This document shows positions 1,177 to 13,541 of a stretch of DNA of 41,677 nucleotides, one piece after another. The position numbers were made by a program, and so were the translations under genes. The notes beneath the pieces were generated by a model. It ran no database searches. It was not told the origin of the DNA and saw nothing but the letters and a program-made list of their open reading frames with translations. Numbering within the stretch: the first letter of the stretch is position 1; each line of letters begins with the position of its first letter. The DNA is from a virus. The DNA is taken from positions 1 to 41,677 of IMG/VR virus record IMGVR_UViG_3300043773_000457; one strand, given 5' to 3'.

Positions 1177-1311
1177 TCACACATCAGTTAATTTTTTATA
1201 TCTTTTATACGATTTACAATGCCCGTTATGTAAGTTTATCATACAATTATGATTTAAATCATTTTCTTCACAATATTCTCTCAAATTGTCTATTTGTATT
1301 TTTTCACCACA
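1177..1311 (-). pseudogene. Out-of-frame C-terminal domain of the GIY-YIG endonuclease
   Basis: In the frame beginning TGT GGT at 1311 the sequence reads CGEKIQIDNLREYCEENDLN and continues to a stop at 1177. The end contains a HNCMINLHNGH segment and Lys/Tyr-rich residues. This matches the NUMOD1-like helix-turn-helix tail usual in phage GIY-YIG and HNH endonucleases (IxNLxxFCxxNxL). It follows directly on the main frame apart from one missing base, so it is read as the detached C-terminus of the same gene, not an independent gene. Confidence 0.7.
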
Positions 1312-1832
1312 GGAGTTATATACCATCTTGTTTTAAGATTTTTCCCCCTTGTCCCTGTACTTATTTTTGAAAGGGTTTCTGCAGAGTGTTTTTTTCCATA
1401 GTTAGGGTTTCCCTTTCCAGAATACATTTTACTAAAATGTTCCTTAAGATGATCGGGACATTTTGTTCCCATTTTTACCTCACTAATCTTTTTTCTGGTT
1501 TCTGCGTCATACACCTTCCCTTTATGCACCTTACTTATTAAGTGCCGAGTTCTTTGTGAAATATTGGAATTACCTTCACCACCATTACTAATATTGATAA
1601 GTATTCCTGTTCCCAAATCTTTTCTACCCAGAACGGCAATCATATACATTTCGTGCTTATATGCATCAATTTCATTATCAAAATGTTTTAATATTATAAT
1701 TCTATCTCTATCTTTTGGAGTAAAACTCCCATTTCCTCTCCAATGTTCTGCATACATTCGTCTTTTTTGTCCCTTACCAATGTAATAAGGAGTTCTATCC
1801 TTCTTGCGAAGGTAAGCGTAAGTATAATACAT
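1290..1832 (-). CDS. GIY-YIG homing endonuclease (C-terminus frameshifted)
   Basis: This is a free-standing homing endonuclease. The GIY-YIG domain is at residues 1-95 (YYTYAYL, then TPYYIGKG; the catalytic-type Glu is in SNGGEGN). It is followed by Lys-rich NUMOD3-type DNA-binding repeats (ISKVHKGK, PNYGKKHSAETLSKIS). Such enzymes nick or cut phage DNA to spread their own gene. The frame stops at 1290, but codons for a typical NUMOD1-like tail continue in another frame to 1177, so the gene has probably lost one base near 1311-1316. It lies between the helicase and a small gene and has its own TATAAATA late promoter inside an inverted repeat. It is clearly related to the second GIY-YIG protein at 12327-12863 (shared MIAVLGRKDLGTGIL segment). 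Confidence 0.9.
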   Translation of the reverse strand: MYYTYAYLRKKDRTPYYIGKGQKRRMYAEHWRGNGSFTPKDRDRIIILKHFDNEIDAYKHEMYMIAVLGRKDLGTGILINISNGGEGNSNISQRTRHLISKVHKGKVYDAETRKKISEVKMGTKCPDHLKEHFSKMYSGKGNPNYGKKHSAETLSKISTGTRGKNLKTRWYITPVVKKYK

Positions 1833-1907
1833 TTGTGTCTTGGCGTGACTTATTAATATTTATACCATAAATGTGGGTCTTACGCAACTATATCCGCCAA
1901 GACACAA
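1833..1907 (-). promoter_or_regulatory. Late promoter enclosed by inverted repeat at endonuclease start
   Basis: TATAAATA (minus strand) at 1857-1864 is a perfect T4 late promoter. It lies between the arms of a perfect 13-bp inverted repeat, TTGTGTCTTGGCG at 1833-1845 and its complement at 1895-1907. The inner arm directly touches the ATG at 1832. A transcript coming from the helicase would contain both arms and could bury the start in a stem. A transcript starting at the late promoter lacks the outer arm. This is the same logic known for T4 I-TevI. Confidence 0.75.
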
Positions 1908-1923
1908 GTTGCTGCCCACTAAA

Positions 1924-12326: not shown

Positions 12327-12863
12327 CTATCCTTTATTTATTAATCTTCCTAAACTAAAATCTTCACCTGGACAATCTCTAGAAAATTTACATTCTATTC
12401 CATTATTCCACCATTTTTTACCCCAAGAAGGATTTTTTTCTTTTGCCATAATACCTTTCAACCCAATACTCATATTTTTTCTATGCTCACTAGTAAATAT
12501 TTTTTTCTTTGCTGCTTCACTTAATGCTTTTCTATGTTCTACACTTTTCTTTCTACCTTTATGACTATCACTTAATTTCTTTTTAGTTTCATCAGTAAGA
12601 ACACGACCAGCGCATCCTTCTCCACCATTAGTCATATTCCTCAAAATGCCTGTACCTAGATCTTTTCTTCCTAATACAGCAATCATATAAACTTCGTGTT
12701 TTCTTGCCTCTTCATCAGTAAGATTTTTCTTTAAATATATTCGTCTATTTTCTGGTGGAAGATTTATATTATGTAAATTATTATTAATTCTTCCTGCCTT
12801 ACCCTTACCAATGTAATAAGGTGTCCCGTCTTCACGCAAATAAGCGTAAGTGTAATATTCCAT
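12327..12863 (-). CDS. GIY-YIG homing endonuclease, 178 aa
   Basis: The GIY-YIG domain is at residues 1-90 (YYTYAYLREDGTPYYIGKGK, catalytic-type Glu in TNGGEG). NUMOD3-like Lys/Ser repeats follow (LSDSHKGRKKSVEHRKALSE; MSIGLKGIMAKEKNPSWGKK), then a WWNNG tail with two cysteines that probably also contacts DNA. The N-terminal half is closely related to the protein at 1290-1832, but the tail is of a different type, so the two probably target different sites. It is inserted between a 101-residue gene and the large fiber gene. Its own TATAAATA promoter lies inside an inverted repeat, and a terminator lies just upstream. The frame appears intact. Confidence 0.9.
   Translation of the reverse strand: MEYYTYAYLREDGTPYYIGKGKAGRINNNLHNINLPPENRRIYLKKNLTDEEARKHEVYMIAVLGRKDLGTGILRNMTNGGEGCAGRVLTDETKKKLSDSHKGRKKSVEHRKALSEAAKKKIFTSEHRKNMSIGLKGIMAKEKNPSWGKKWWNNGIECKFSRDCPGEDFSLGRLINKG
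12335..12342 (-). promoter_or_regulatory. Late promoter motif (AATAAATA)
   Basis: The minus strand reads AATAAATA 34-41 nt upstream of the TTG start of the 1802-residue gene, in the final codons of the second GIY-YIG gene. It lets the fiber gene be transcribed independently of the inserted endonuclease. Confidence 0.55.
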
Positions 12864-12868
12864 CTGCT

Positions 12869-12945
12869 TTAATCGTGGTTATATGTATTTATACAAGAAA
12901 AGGAGCATTTCTGCTCCCGTTCTTTGCTTAAACAACCACGATTAA
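12869..12945 (-). promoter_or_regulatory. Late promoter enclosed by inverted repeat at second endonuclease start
   Basis: A perfect TATAAATA (minus) at 12886-12893 lies between inverted-repeat arms TTAATCGTGGTT (12869-12880) and AACCACGATTAA (12934-12945). With one bulge the stem extends over a further GC on each side. The inner arm covers -6 to -17 of the ATG at 12863, where the ribosome binds. Only transcripts from upstream contain both arms. The arm sequence is unrelated to the one at 1833-1907, yet the plan is the same. Confidence 0.75.
12894..12917 (-). terminator. Rho-independent terminator with GAAA loop
   Basis: The minus strand reads GGAGCA GAAA TGCTCC followed by TTTTCTT: a perfect 6-bp GC-rich stem, a GNRA-type tetraloop and a T-tract. 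It ends the transcript of the 101-residue gene and lies inside the inverted repeat, directly before the TATAAATA of the endonuclease. Confidence 0.75.
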
Positions 12946-12955
12946 GCACTAATAT

Positions 12956-13261
12956 TTATGAAGTCAAATCTTCCTCGTTAAACTCATAATATTCGTCTTG
13001 AGGCATATCTTCTGGGTTCTCTAAATCTACCATAAACAAACAAGGATGTGCCTCTTCATCTATCAGATAAAAAGAACTTCTGTATAAGTCTTCTGGTTCA
13101 AATGTGCGATTCTTATCTGCTGCTCTACAAAGGTCTTGGTCGTATAAGTGTCCTTCTGGAAGTTCGTCAAATGTGAAAGGGATGTGATTGATAAAATACA
13201 TCTTCACAATCATACTGCCATCGTTATACCAGCAGTATGCAGTGTCGATACGATAAGACAT
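12956..13261 (-). CDS. Acidic hypothetical protein, 101 aa
   Basis: The protein is strongly acidic, especially at its end (VDLENPEDMPQDEYYEFNEEDLTS), and rich in Tyr and Phe. No signal peptide, membrane segment or known motif is seen. It lies between the tRNA cluster and the second homing endonuclease and has a late motif AATAAATA at 13281-13288. A terminator follows it. Acidic small phage proteins are often DNA mimics or inhibitors of host proteins, but nothing here identifies a target. Confidence 0.65.
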   Translation of the reverse strand: MSYRIDTAYCWYNDGSMIVKMYFINHIPFTFDELPEGHLYDQDLCRAADKNRTFEPEDLYRSSFYLIDEEAHPCLFMVDLENPEDMPQDEYYEFNEEDLTS

Positions 13262-13292: not shown

Positions 13293-13365
13293 TACCCGTG
13301 AGTGGATTCGAACCACCGCTTGGAACATTTTAAGTGTTCTGCCTCTTCCGCTGGGCTACACGGGC
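13293..13365 (-). tRNA. tRNA-Leu (anticodon UAA)
   Basis: A complete cloverleaf can be folded: acceptor GCCCGTG with CACGGGT, anticodon stem GAACA/TGTTC around loop CTTAAAA, T-arm GGTGG TTCGAAT CCACT, discriminator A. CCA is not encoded. The anticodon UAA reads UUA. The variable loop is only about 5 nt (CAAGC), whereas bacterial leucine tRNAs normally carry a long variable arm. Identity is by anticodon only. The 5' end directly abuts the CCA of tRNA-Met. Confidence 0.85.
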
Positions 13366-13442
13366 TGGTGGTCGCAAAGAGGATCGAACTCTTCTACGGC
13401 GCTTTATGAGAACGCTGCCTTCAACCAGATGGCTATACGACC
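13366..13442 (-). tRNA. tRNA-Met (anticodon CAU), CCA encoded
   Basis: The cloverleaf has acceptor GGTCGTA with TGCGACC, anticodon stem GCGTT/AGCGC around loop CTCATAA, T-arm AAGAG TTCGATC CTCTT, discriminator A and an encoded CCA at 13366-13368. The acceptor's first pair is matched and the anticodon stem lacks the GGG/CCC of initiator tRNA, so it is not fMet. A CAU anticodon could also belong to lysidine-modified tRNA-Ile2. Since a separate tRNA-Ile(UAU) lies next door, elongator Met is the simpler reading. Confidence 0.85.
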
Positions 13443-13445
13443 TAG

Positions 13446-13469
13446 ATTCGCTATTCGCAAATAGCGAAT
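13446..13469 (-). repeat. Perfect 10-bp hairpin between tRNA-Ile and tRNA-Met
   Basis: ATTCGCTATT at 13446-13455 and its exact complement at 13460-13469 enclose a 4-nt loop, read TGCG on the minus strand (a UNCG-type tetraloop). It overlaps the discriminator base of tRNA-Ile. There is no T-tract, so it is more likely an RNA-processing element than a terminator. Confidence 0.7.
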
Positions 13470-13541
13470 GGGAACAGCGGGGAATGATCCCGCACTAAGC
13501 ACTTATAAGGTGCCCGCTCTAACCAATTAAGCTATGCTCCC
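13469..13541 (-). tRNA. tRNA-Ile (anticodon UAU)
   Basis: Acceptor GGGAGCA pairs with TGTTCCC (one G-T pair), anticodon stem GGCAC/GTGCT surrounds loop CTTATAA, and the T-arm is GCGGG/CCCGC. The anticodon UAU reads AUA. The T-loop is ATCATTC instead of the usual TTCRANY, which is unusual. CCA is not encoded. The 5' end lies 7 nt downstream of the antitoxin-like gene, so both are probably on one transcript. Confidence 0.8.

Follow-up and report, generated by a model that had tools for sequence, protein, structure and literature searches.

The window, which here means the whole 41,677-base IMG/VR virus record that was analysed, carries T4-like cyanophage genes and holds two minus-strand ORFs that resemble GIY-YIG homing endonucleases. 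Both ORFs match Pfam NUMOD3 and the homing endonuclease family phrog_314 (1e-11 for the ORF at 12327-12863, referred to as the second copy, and 2e-13 for the first). The GIY-YIG motif of the second copy, YTYAYL...YYIGKG, was spotted by eye, and the Pfam match there is to NUMOD3 only, at 8e-5. Judged by its phrog_314 match, the gene behind the leader described below is a putative homing endonuclease; no PDB relative with an E value below 0.8 was found for ORF 12327-12863, and megablast of the second-copy region against phages gave no match. Three tRNA genes (13293-13541, minus strand) lie immediately upstream of the neighbouring ORF at 12956-13261. The features of the two copies are as follows.

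1290-1832, minus strand: first GIY-YIG ORF, 180 aa, with the same plan and other arms (class II)
1833-1845, minus strand: first-copy 3′ arm, CGCCAAGACACAA, immediately before the ATG
1857-1864, minus strand: inner late promoter of the first copy, TATAAATA
1873-1919, minus strand: class II element, GTGGGCAGCAACT-(arm in loop)-AGTTGCGTAAGACCCAC, then a T-rich stretch; the loop holds the 5′ arm
1895-1907, minus strand: 5′ arm of the first copy, 49 nt from the 3′ arm
12327-12863, minus strand: GIY-YIG homing-endonuclease-like ORF (second copy), 178 aa, YTYAYLRE...YYIGKG, NUMOD3
12335-12340, minus strand: right-hand TAAATA, within the last codons of the endonuclease ORF
12861-12863, minus strand: ATG of the second GIY-YIG ORF
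12865-12868, minus strand: bulged A (12868) and GCA, prolonging the pairing to one base before the ATG
12869-12880, minus strand: 3′ (inner) arm, AACCACGATTAA, in the 5′ UTR beside the start codon
12886-12893, minus strand: inner late promoter (promoter 2), TATAAATA, T4-type
12895-12918, minus strand: intrinsic terminator, stem-loop and T tract, GGGAGCA-GAAA-TGCTCC-TTTTCTT
12925-12948, minus strand: hairpin 1, TGCTTAA-TCGTGGTTGT-TTAAGCA, with much of the 5′ arm in its loop
12934-12945, minus strand: 5′ (outer) arm, TTAATCGTGGTT, 12 nt
12953-12960, minus strand: outer late promoter (promoter 1), CATAAATA, which overlaps the TAA (12956-12958) that ends the upstream ORF
12956-13261, minus strand: upstream neighbour ORF, 101 aa, phrog_4134

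Read 5′ to 3′ on the minus strand, the second-copy module (12861-12960) runs from promoter 1 and the stop codon through hairpin 1, the terminator, the inner promoter and the 3′ arm to the bulged A, GCA, a single G and the ATG. The plus strand at 12869-12880 reads TTAATCGTGGTT and its complement lies at 12934-12945; past the bulged A at 12868 the pairing resumes, with TGC (12946-12948) set against GCA (12865-12867). The 5′ arm occupies the loop plus part of the stem of hairpin 1. The positions of arms, promoters and terminator that a sequence-only reading had assigned to 12861-12945 and to the first copy all check, as does its spacing of 53 nt between the arms of the second copy and 49 nt between those of the first, with a late promoter in between. 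That reading did not include hairpin 1, the upstream late promoter that overlaps a stop codon, or the recurrence of this plan in front of other ORF families.

RNA structure prediction, which the same reading had proposed as a check, gave −46.8 kcal/mol for the minus strand at 12830-12960, compared with −21.4 ± 3.5 kcal/mol for 200 shuffles (z −7.3, no shuffle as good). The first copy folds with a z of −3.7, again with none of 200 shuffles as good. According to the accessible text of PMC2984593, NATAAATA is the cyanophage late promoter. The window has 14 such sites, and every one is on the minus (coding) strand; that the plus strand has none speaks for their being genuine late promoters. Just two of the 14, those of the two copies, possess arms of more than 7 bp (12 and 13 bp). 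At gathering score, Rfam finds three tRNAs and nothing else in the window, a permissive search of 12700-13100 returned chance matches far below the gathering scores, and the class II copy at 1873-1919 matches no Rfam family. A known Rfam element was rejected for want of a match.

Relatives of the module and their arms

Two scans kept 80 of 275 and 80 of 111 relatives, yielding 160 loci; together with the two window copies these make 162 records, which were reduced to 104 distinct ones by collapsing identical 105-nt upstream stretches. Arms, defined as a stretch upstream of the inner promoter that pairs with the leader, are present in 100 of the 104 distinct upstream regions. Allowing one mismatch, TATAAATA stands 26-35 nt ahead of the ATG in 101 of 104, and in every one of the 100 armed modules the inner promoter lies 3′ of the 5′ arm. 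The proposed plan of a late promoter within a hairpin that covers the start region, with a terminator inside, is thereby borne out in 100 of the 104 distinct relatives, a count that, like the others given here, overstates the number of independent events because many relatives are close.

The duplex between the upstream and downstream parts averages −22.3 kcal/mol, compared with −11.7 kcal/mol when shuffled, and 96 of 103 regions beat at least 99 of 100 shuffles (the promoterless L118 was left out of this comparison). The four armless regions were left out of the arm-run, hairpin, alignment and armed-module openness counts. The longest perfect arm run averages 10.7 bp with an arm's own partner and 5.3 bp when partners are swapped between arm families (1300 swaps), and 38 distinct arm cores were counted, a few of them spurious. 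A MAFFT alignment of all 81 class I modules misaligns arms of different families, so that no whole-arm covariation score is claimed and no covariance model was built; the columns read were 11-13 with 125-127. At columns 12 and 126, next to the ATG, the 81 class I modules have G-C in 59, A-U in 17, G-U in 3, A-A in 1, G-A in 1 and A-C in none, and the internal arm mismatches comprise four G-U, no A-C and five others. Mismatches of the G-U and not the A-C kind, together with the compensatory pair, suggest, on small counts from related sequences, that what pairs is RNA of this strand. The earlier suggestion that the arrangement, and not the arm sequence, is what selection acts on agrees with what the relatives display, namely 100 of 104 armed and arms that change in match.

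The predicted openness of positions −15 to +3 is 0.68 in the transcript from the inner promoter and 0.30 in the read-through transcript, and it is lower in the latter in 100 of 100 armed modules. With the upstream part shuffled the value is 0.54, and the real one is lower in 97 of 100.

Relatives with the gene intact and no complementary arms had been named as evidence that would speak against the proposal. When sought, they proved to be the minority, with 100 of 104 distinct regions armed, but they do exist: L042, L091, L113 and L118 lack arms and all have open frames of 221-260 codons. By eye, 6 of 10 loci from cyanophage isolates have arms (S-SRM01, B23, S-B68, Sf-CH5, MC09 and S-CREM2) and 4 do not (L162, L164, L167 and L170, from RN05-S, two ACG-2014f and S-N03). 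A late-promoter-like motif is retained in the armless L042, L091, L164 and L170. The existence of armless loci with open ORFs means that the arms are usual and not obligatory. In three relatives from phages of other hosts, no such plan was seen by eye.

Two classes of armed module can be recognized. Class I, with 81 of the 104 distinct regions, is built like the second copy, and class II, with 19, like the first. Class II has a conserved frame, GGGCAGCAA...TTGCGTAAGTCCC, which is itself terminator-like and holds the 5′ arm in its loop; neither a promoter 1 nor a Shine-Dalgarno sequence is evident in class II modules. A pattern scan for this frame returned 92 stretches, of which 80 loci (L362-L441) are listed and reduce to 45 distinct elements. 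Among these 45, the loop is complementary over at least 8 bp to the sequence just downstream in 43 (1 of 45 in shuffles), and 18 different arms are represented. The frame, with its exchangeable loop arms, precedes several kinds of endonuclease-like ORF. With the 5′ arm lying in a small hairpin in class I and in the frame loop in class II, both classes present it in the loop of a local hairpin. At L428 a class II module remains and is followed by an apparent C-terminal tail of an endonuclease.

Insertion site and companion genes

Empty sites were located by way of the upstream ORF, the neighbour of the second copy. Among 44 distinct contexts of this upstream gene, 5 are occupied, 38 are empty and 1 (L295) is a remnant, in which the C-terminal tail of the endonuclease ORF alone is left after the upstream gene. 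By eye, all 38 empty sites have the stop codon TAA in or beside TAAATA, followed by a fibre gene. The presence of promoter 1 at sites that lack the cassette indicates that this promoter is native and that the cassette adjoins it. The left TAAATA is kept at occupied sites, and in the window ATAAATAAAGGATAG recurs at the right (12327-12341), in the last endonuclease codons, where, by comparison with empty sites, the right-hand TAAATA gives the downstream fibre gene back its native ATAAATAAAGGATAG context. In class I, a frame open for 60 codons or more ends at the left TAA in 41 of 81 loci, and 26 of 80 have a right-hand TAAATA close to the endonuclease stop, compared with a background of 7.5%, so this insertion context occurs often but not everywhere.

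The inner arm of the second copy occurs, letter for letter, at 30 places, mostly before GIY-YIG ORFs. It also precedes quite different ORFs (L181/L202, L182, L187/L188 and L193) and broken ones (L183, L195 and L198). A scan independent of arm sequence found arms of at least 8 bp at 141 of 448 late-promoter sites, compared with 14 in shuffles; 104 of the 141 precede GIY-YIG ORFs and 37 precede other ORFs or none. In eight records, two of them incomplete, arms of at least 9 bp occur at 37 of 471 NATAAATA sites (4 in shuffles), and 30 of these 37 were judged by eye or by motif to precede endonuclease-like ORFs. Pfam, run on nine such ORFs, gave two matches that pass the curated cut-off, both to Endonuclease VII, three weaker ones (Endonuclease VII, HNH_3/NUMOD4 and NUMOD3) and none for the other four; phrog_314 matches two further ORF types behind such modules. 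The same plan, sometimes with the same arms, thus stands before homing-endonuclease-like ORFs of the Endonuclease VII, HNH and NUMOD3 types, and this makes the module partly independent of the gene that it precedes.

Some loci differ in build. In S-SRM01 (L232, 7342-7375) an Endonuclease VII-like ORF has a plain T4-like hairpin with 20-bp perfect arms and no terminator, and at L119 (a reversed locus, position 476, minus strand) a GIY-YIG-like ORF has a hairpin of the same plain kind with 23-bp perfect arms, likewise without a terminator. In G009 a pair of modules with identical arms is duplicated within one record (L224 at 4402 and 5935; L225 at 9619 and 8099), and the GIY-YIG frames behind the TTAATCGTGGTT modules are broken in both copies.

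A putative late gate and its alternatives

The arrangement is real, conserved and functional-looking, and its role is read here from sequence and predicted folds. The module is probably (a likelihood of roughly 80%) an I-TevI-type late gate on translation, located in the leader of a cassette for a free-standing homing endonuclease in T4-like cyanophages. Transcripts arriving from upstream would mostly be stopped at the intrinsic terminator. Those that read through would hold both arms, and folding predicts that these pair with each other and so shut the start site. At the late stage of infection the inner TATAAATA, to judge from the position of the motif, would start an RNA at or just before the 3′ arm; such an RNA lacks the 5′ arm, which would leave the start site open and allow these late transcripts to be translated. 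Since late transcripts beginning further upstream would stay blocked, timing by itself would not open the gate. As the cassette sits beside a native late promoter, the terminator and arms would presumably also shield the endonuclease from the captured promoter. The module would be selected for complementarity, with arm sequences drifting or being swapped in matched pairs, and it appears to have been recombined among several families of endonuclease-like ORFs. The Shine-Dalgarno sequences are weak or absent (AAAGCAG, AGAGTAG). Hairpin 1 competes with full pairing of the arms, and a plain I-TevI gate does not need it; its role may be to accelerate the pairing or to shield the terminated RNA at its 5′ end, or it may turn that RNA into an antisense acting in trans.

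The last of these roles leads to a different account of the module, that of a built-in antisense RNA, which is possible but rather doubtful. Promoter 1, or processing of the upstream message, would yield an RNA of about 60 nt made up of hairpin 1 and the terminator, and the loop of this RNA would, though improbably, pair in trans with the 5′ end of the promoter-2 mRNA and damp its translation, much as RNA-OUT damps translation for IS10. Extended to the whole set of cassettes, and no less doubtful, this account would describe an RNA regulator that is complete in itself and passes from one homing endonuclease to another, unrelated one: the captured native late promoter would make a trans-repressing hairpin-terminator RNA with its seed in the loop, and each cassette would bring its own sRNA and matching target, with arms free to change their letters. 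Consistent with this, of the 81 class I modules, 75 have a hairpin 1 stem that reaches 4 bp (34% of shuffles) and 35 have one that reaches 6 bp (2.7%), with the seed mostly in the loop. All 81 class I modules have a terminator-like stem with at least two T in the next 8 bases (at least three in 80), and TAAATA stands ahead of hairpin 1 exactly in 80 of 81, so that both an own terminator and complementarity to the mRNA start are found in this class. The two predicted RNAs co-fold at −44.8 kcal/mol, compared with −22.2 and −8.2 kcal/mol alone, and S-PM2 expresses CfrI, an antisense RNA beside an endonuclease gene, as described in the accessible part of PMC2984593. However, promoter 1 fits NATAAATA in just 54 of 81 class I modules and is native, being present at empty sites, class II has no evident promoter 1, and a gate acting in cis accounts for the arms by itself. 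Arms are also not clearly kept different within a record, with 1 of 58 pairs alike compared with 71 of 1482 between records and 441 of 2000 permutations as low, in a count that leans towards difference through the merging of the duplicated module pair of G009, which shares arms. Differing arms within one genome, considered as a sign of trans action, are thus unsupported.

A gate acting on RNA is also favoured over a DNA operator, in which the endonuclease would bind both arms of the inverted repeat and repress its own late promoter. I-TevI is such an autorepressor (PMC2988022, accessible text), and here too the promoter is flanked by arms. Nevertheless, very similar proteins stand behind different arms, one arm sequence is common to different ORF families, and the variation takes in the whole arm and not a fixed word. 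The wobbles, moreover, are G-U and never A-C (4:0 internally and 3:0 next to the ATG, both small counts), which symmetry of the DNA does not predict. Arms shared among several ORF families and G-U without A-C, small as the counts are, make this account very unlikely. That the arms are a by-product without regulatory role (terminal repeats, remains of an insertion event, or sequence that came along with the gene) fits a module that travels with the cassette at its left edge, but is scarcely tenable when both arms lie at that edge and not one at each end, change in match across 38 distinct cores, as the swap control attests, and occur at 141 of 448 sites compared with 14 in shuffles. A chance inverted repeat was rejected on the folding scores of both copies, the duplexes of the relatives, the swap control and the same excess of armed sites.

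If the module is a late gate, a mechanism of a few T4-family genes extends to a whole guild of cyanophage endonuclease genes, and its occurrence before several ORF families suggests that a control piece is exchanged apart from the enzyme. The dozens of natural arm pairs would offer a ready test of start-site gating by base pairing. A simple account also follows of how a selfish gene could settle at a strong late promoter without over-expression and without cutting off its neighbour, by means of a terminator, a gate, a promoter of its own and, at the opposite end, a duplicate of the neighbour's promoter.

Comparison with known systems

According to the accessible text of PMC2988022, the general plan is known from T4 I-TevI, I-TevII, I-TevIII and segB and from Aeh1 mobE; I-TevI is the case in which the late-gate logic is established, and for its relatives it has weaker backing, from prediction or test (PMC2988022, PMC3014915, both in part). 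No account of the cyanophage module was found in the literature, in a search whose coverage mostly excludes subscription journals, and the accessible portions of PMC9964418 and PMC10448857 do not mention it. The new parts, as they appear in sequence comparison, are a conserved small hairpin whose loop presents the 5′ arm, the terminator inside the gate and the portability of the module, together with the placement of the cassette beside a late promoter overlapping the upstream gene's stop codon.

In T4 I-TevI, as proposed for the cyanophage module, an RNA hairpin shuts the start site on transcripts from upstream, the late promoter is placed so that its transcript lacks the 5′ arm, and the product is a homing endonuclease. 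The promoter of I-TevIII lies in the hairpin loop in the fold computed here, as it does in the cyanophage module, whereas I-TevI has its late promoter within the 5′ arm, with AATAAATACTTC pairing with GAGGTATTTAT in the fold. None of the folded T4 leaders has an intrinsic terminator or a small hairpin round the 5′ arm, in contrast to the cyanophage class I module, which has both. The I-Tev genes are intron-encoded, whereas the cyanophage cassette is free-standing. T4 segB and Aeromonas phage Aeh1 mobE are likewise free-standing genes, with a start-site hairpin and a late promoter (PMC2988022 and PMC3014915, accessible parts), although segB has its promoter inside the 5′ arm and no terminator in the fold.

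The T4 genes e, soc and 49 resemble the module in that their start sites are sequestered in an RNA helix on longer early transcripts (PMC3014915, in the part available). These are ordinary phage genes, whereas the module sits in mobile cassettes. We know of no terminator within the gate of any of the three. Control by RNA at a cyanophage endonuclease gene has been proposed for the CfrI antisense RNA of S-PM2 (PMC2984593, accessible text). CfrI differs in being about 225 nt long and antisense to the gene, whereas the complement in the module described here is encoded just upstream, on the same strand.
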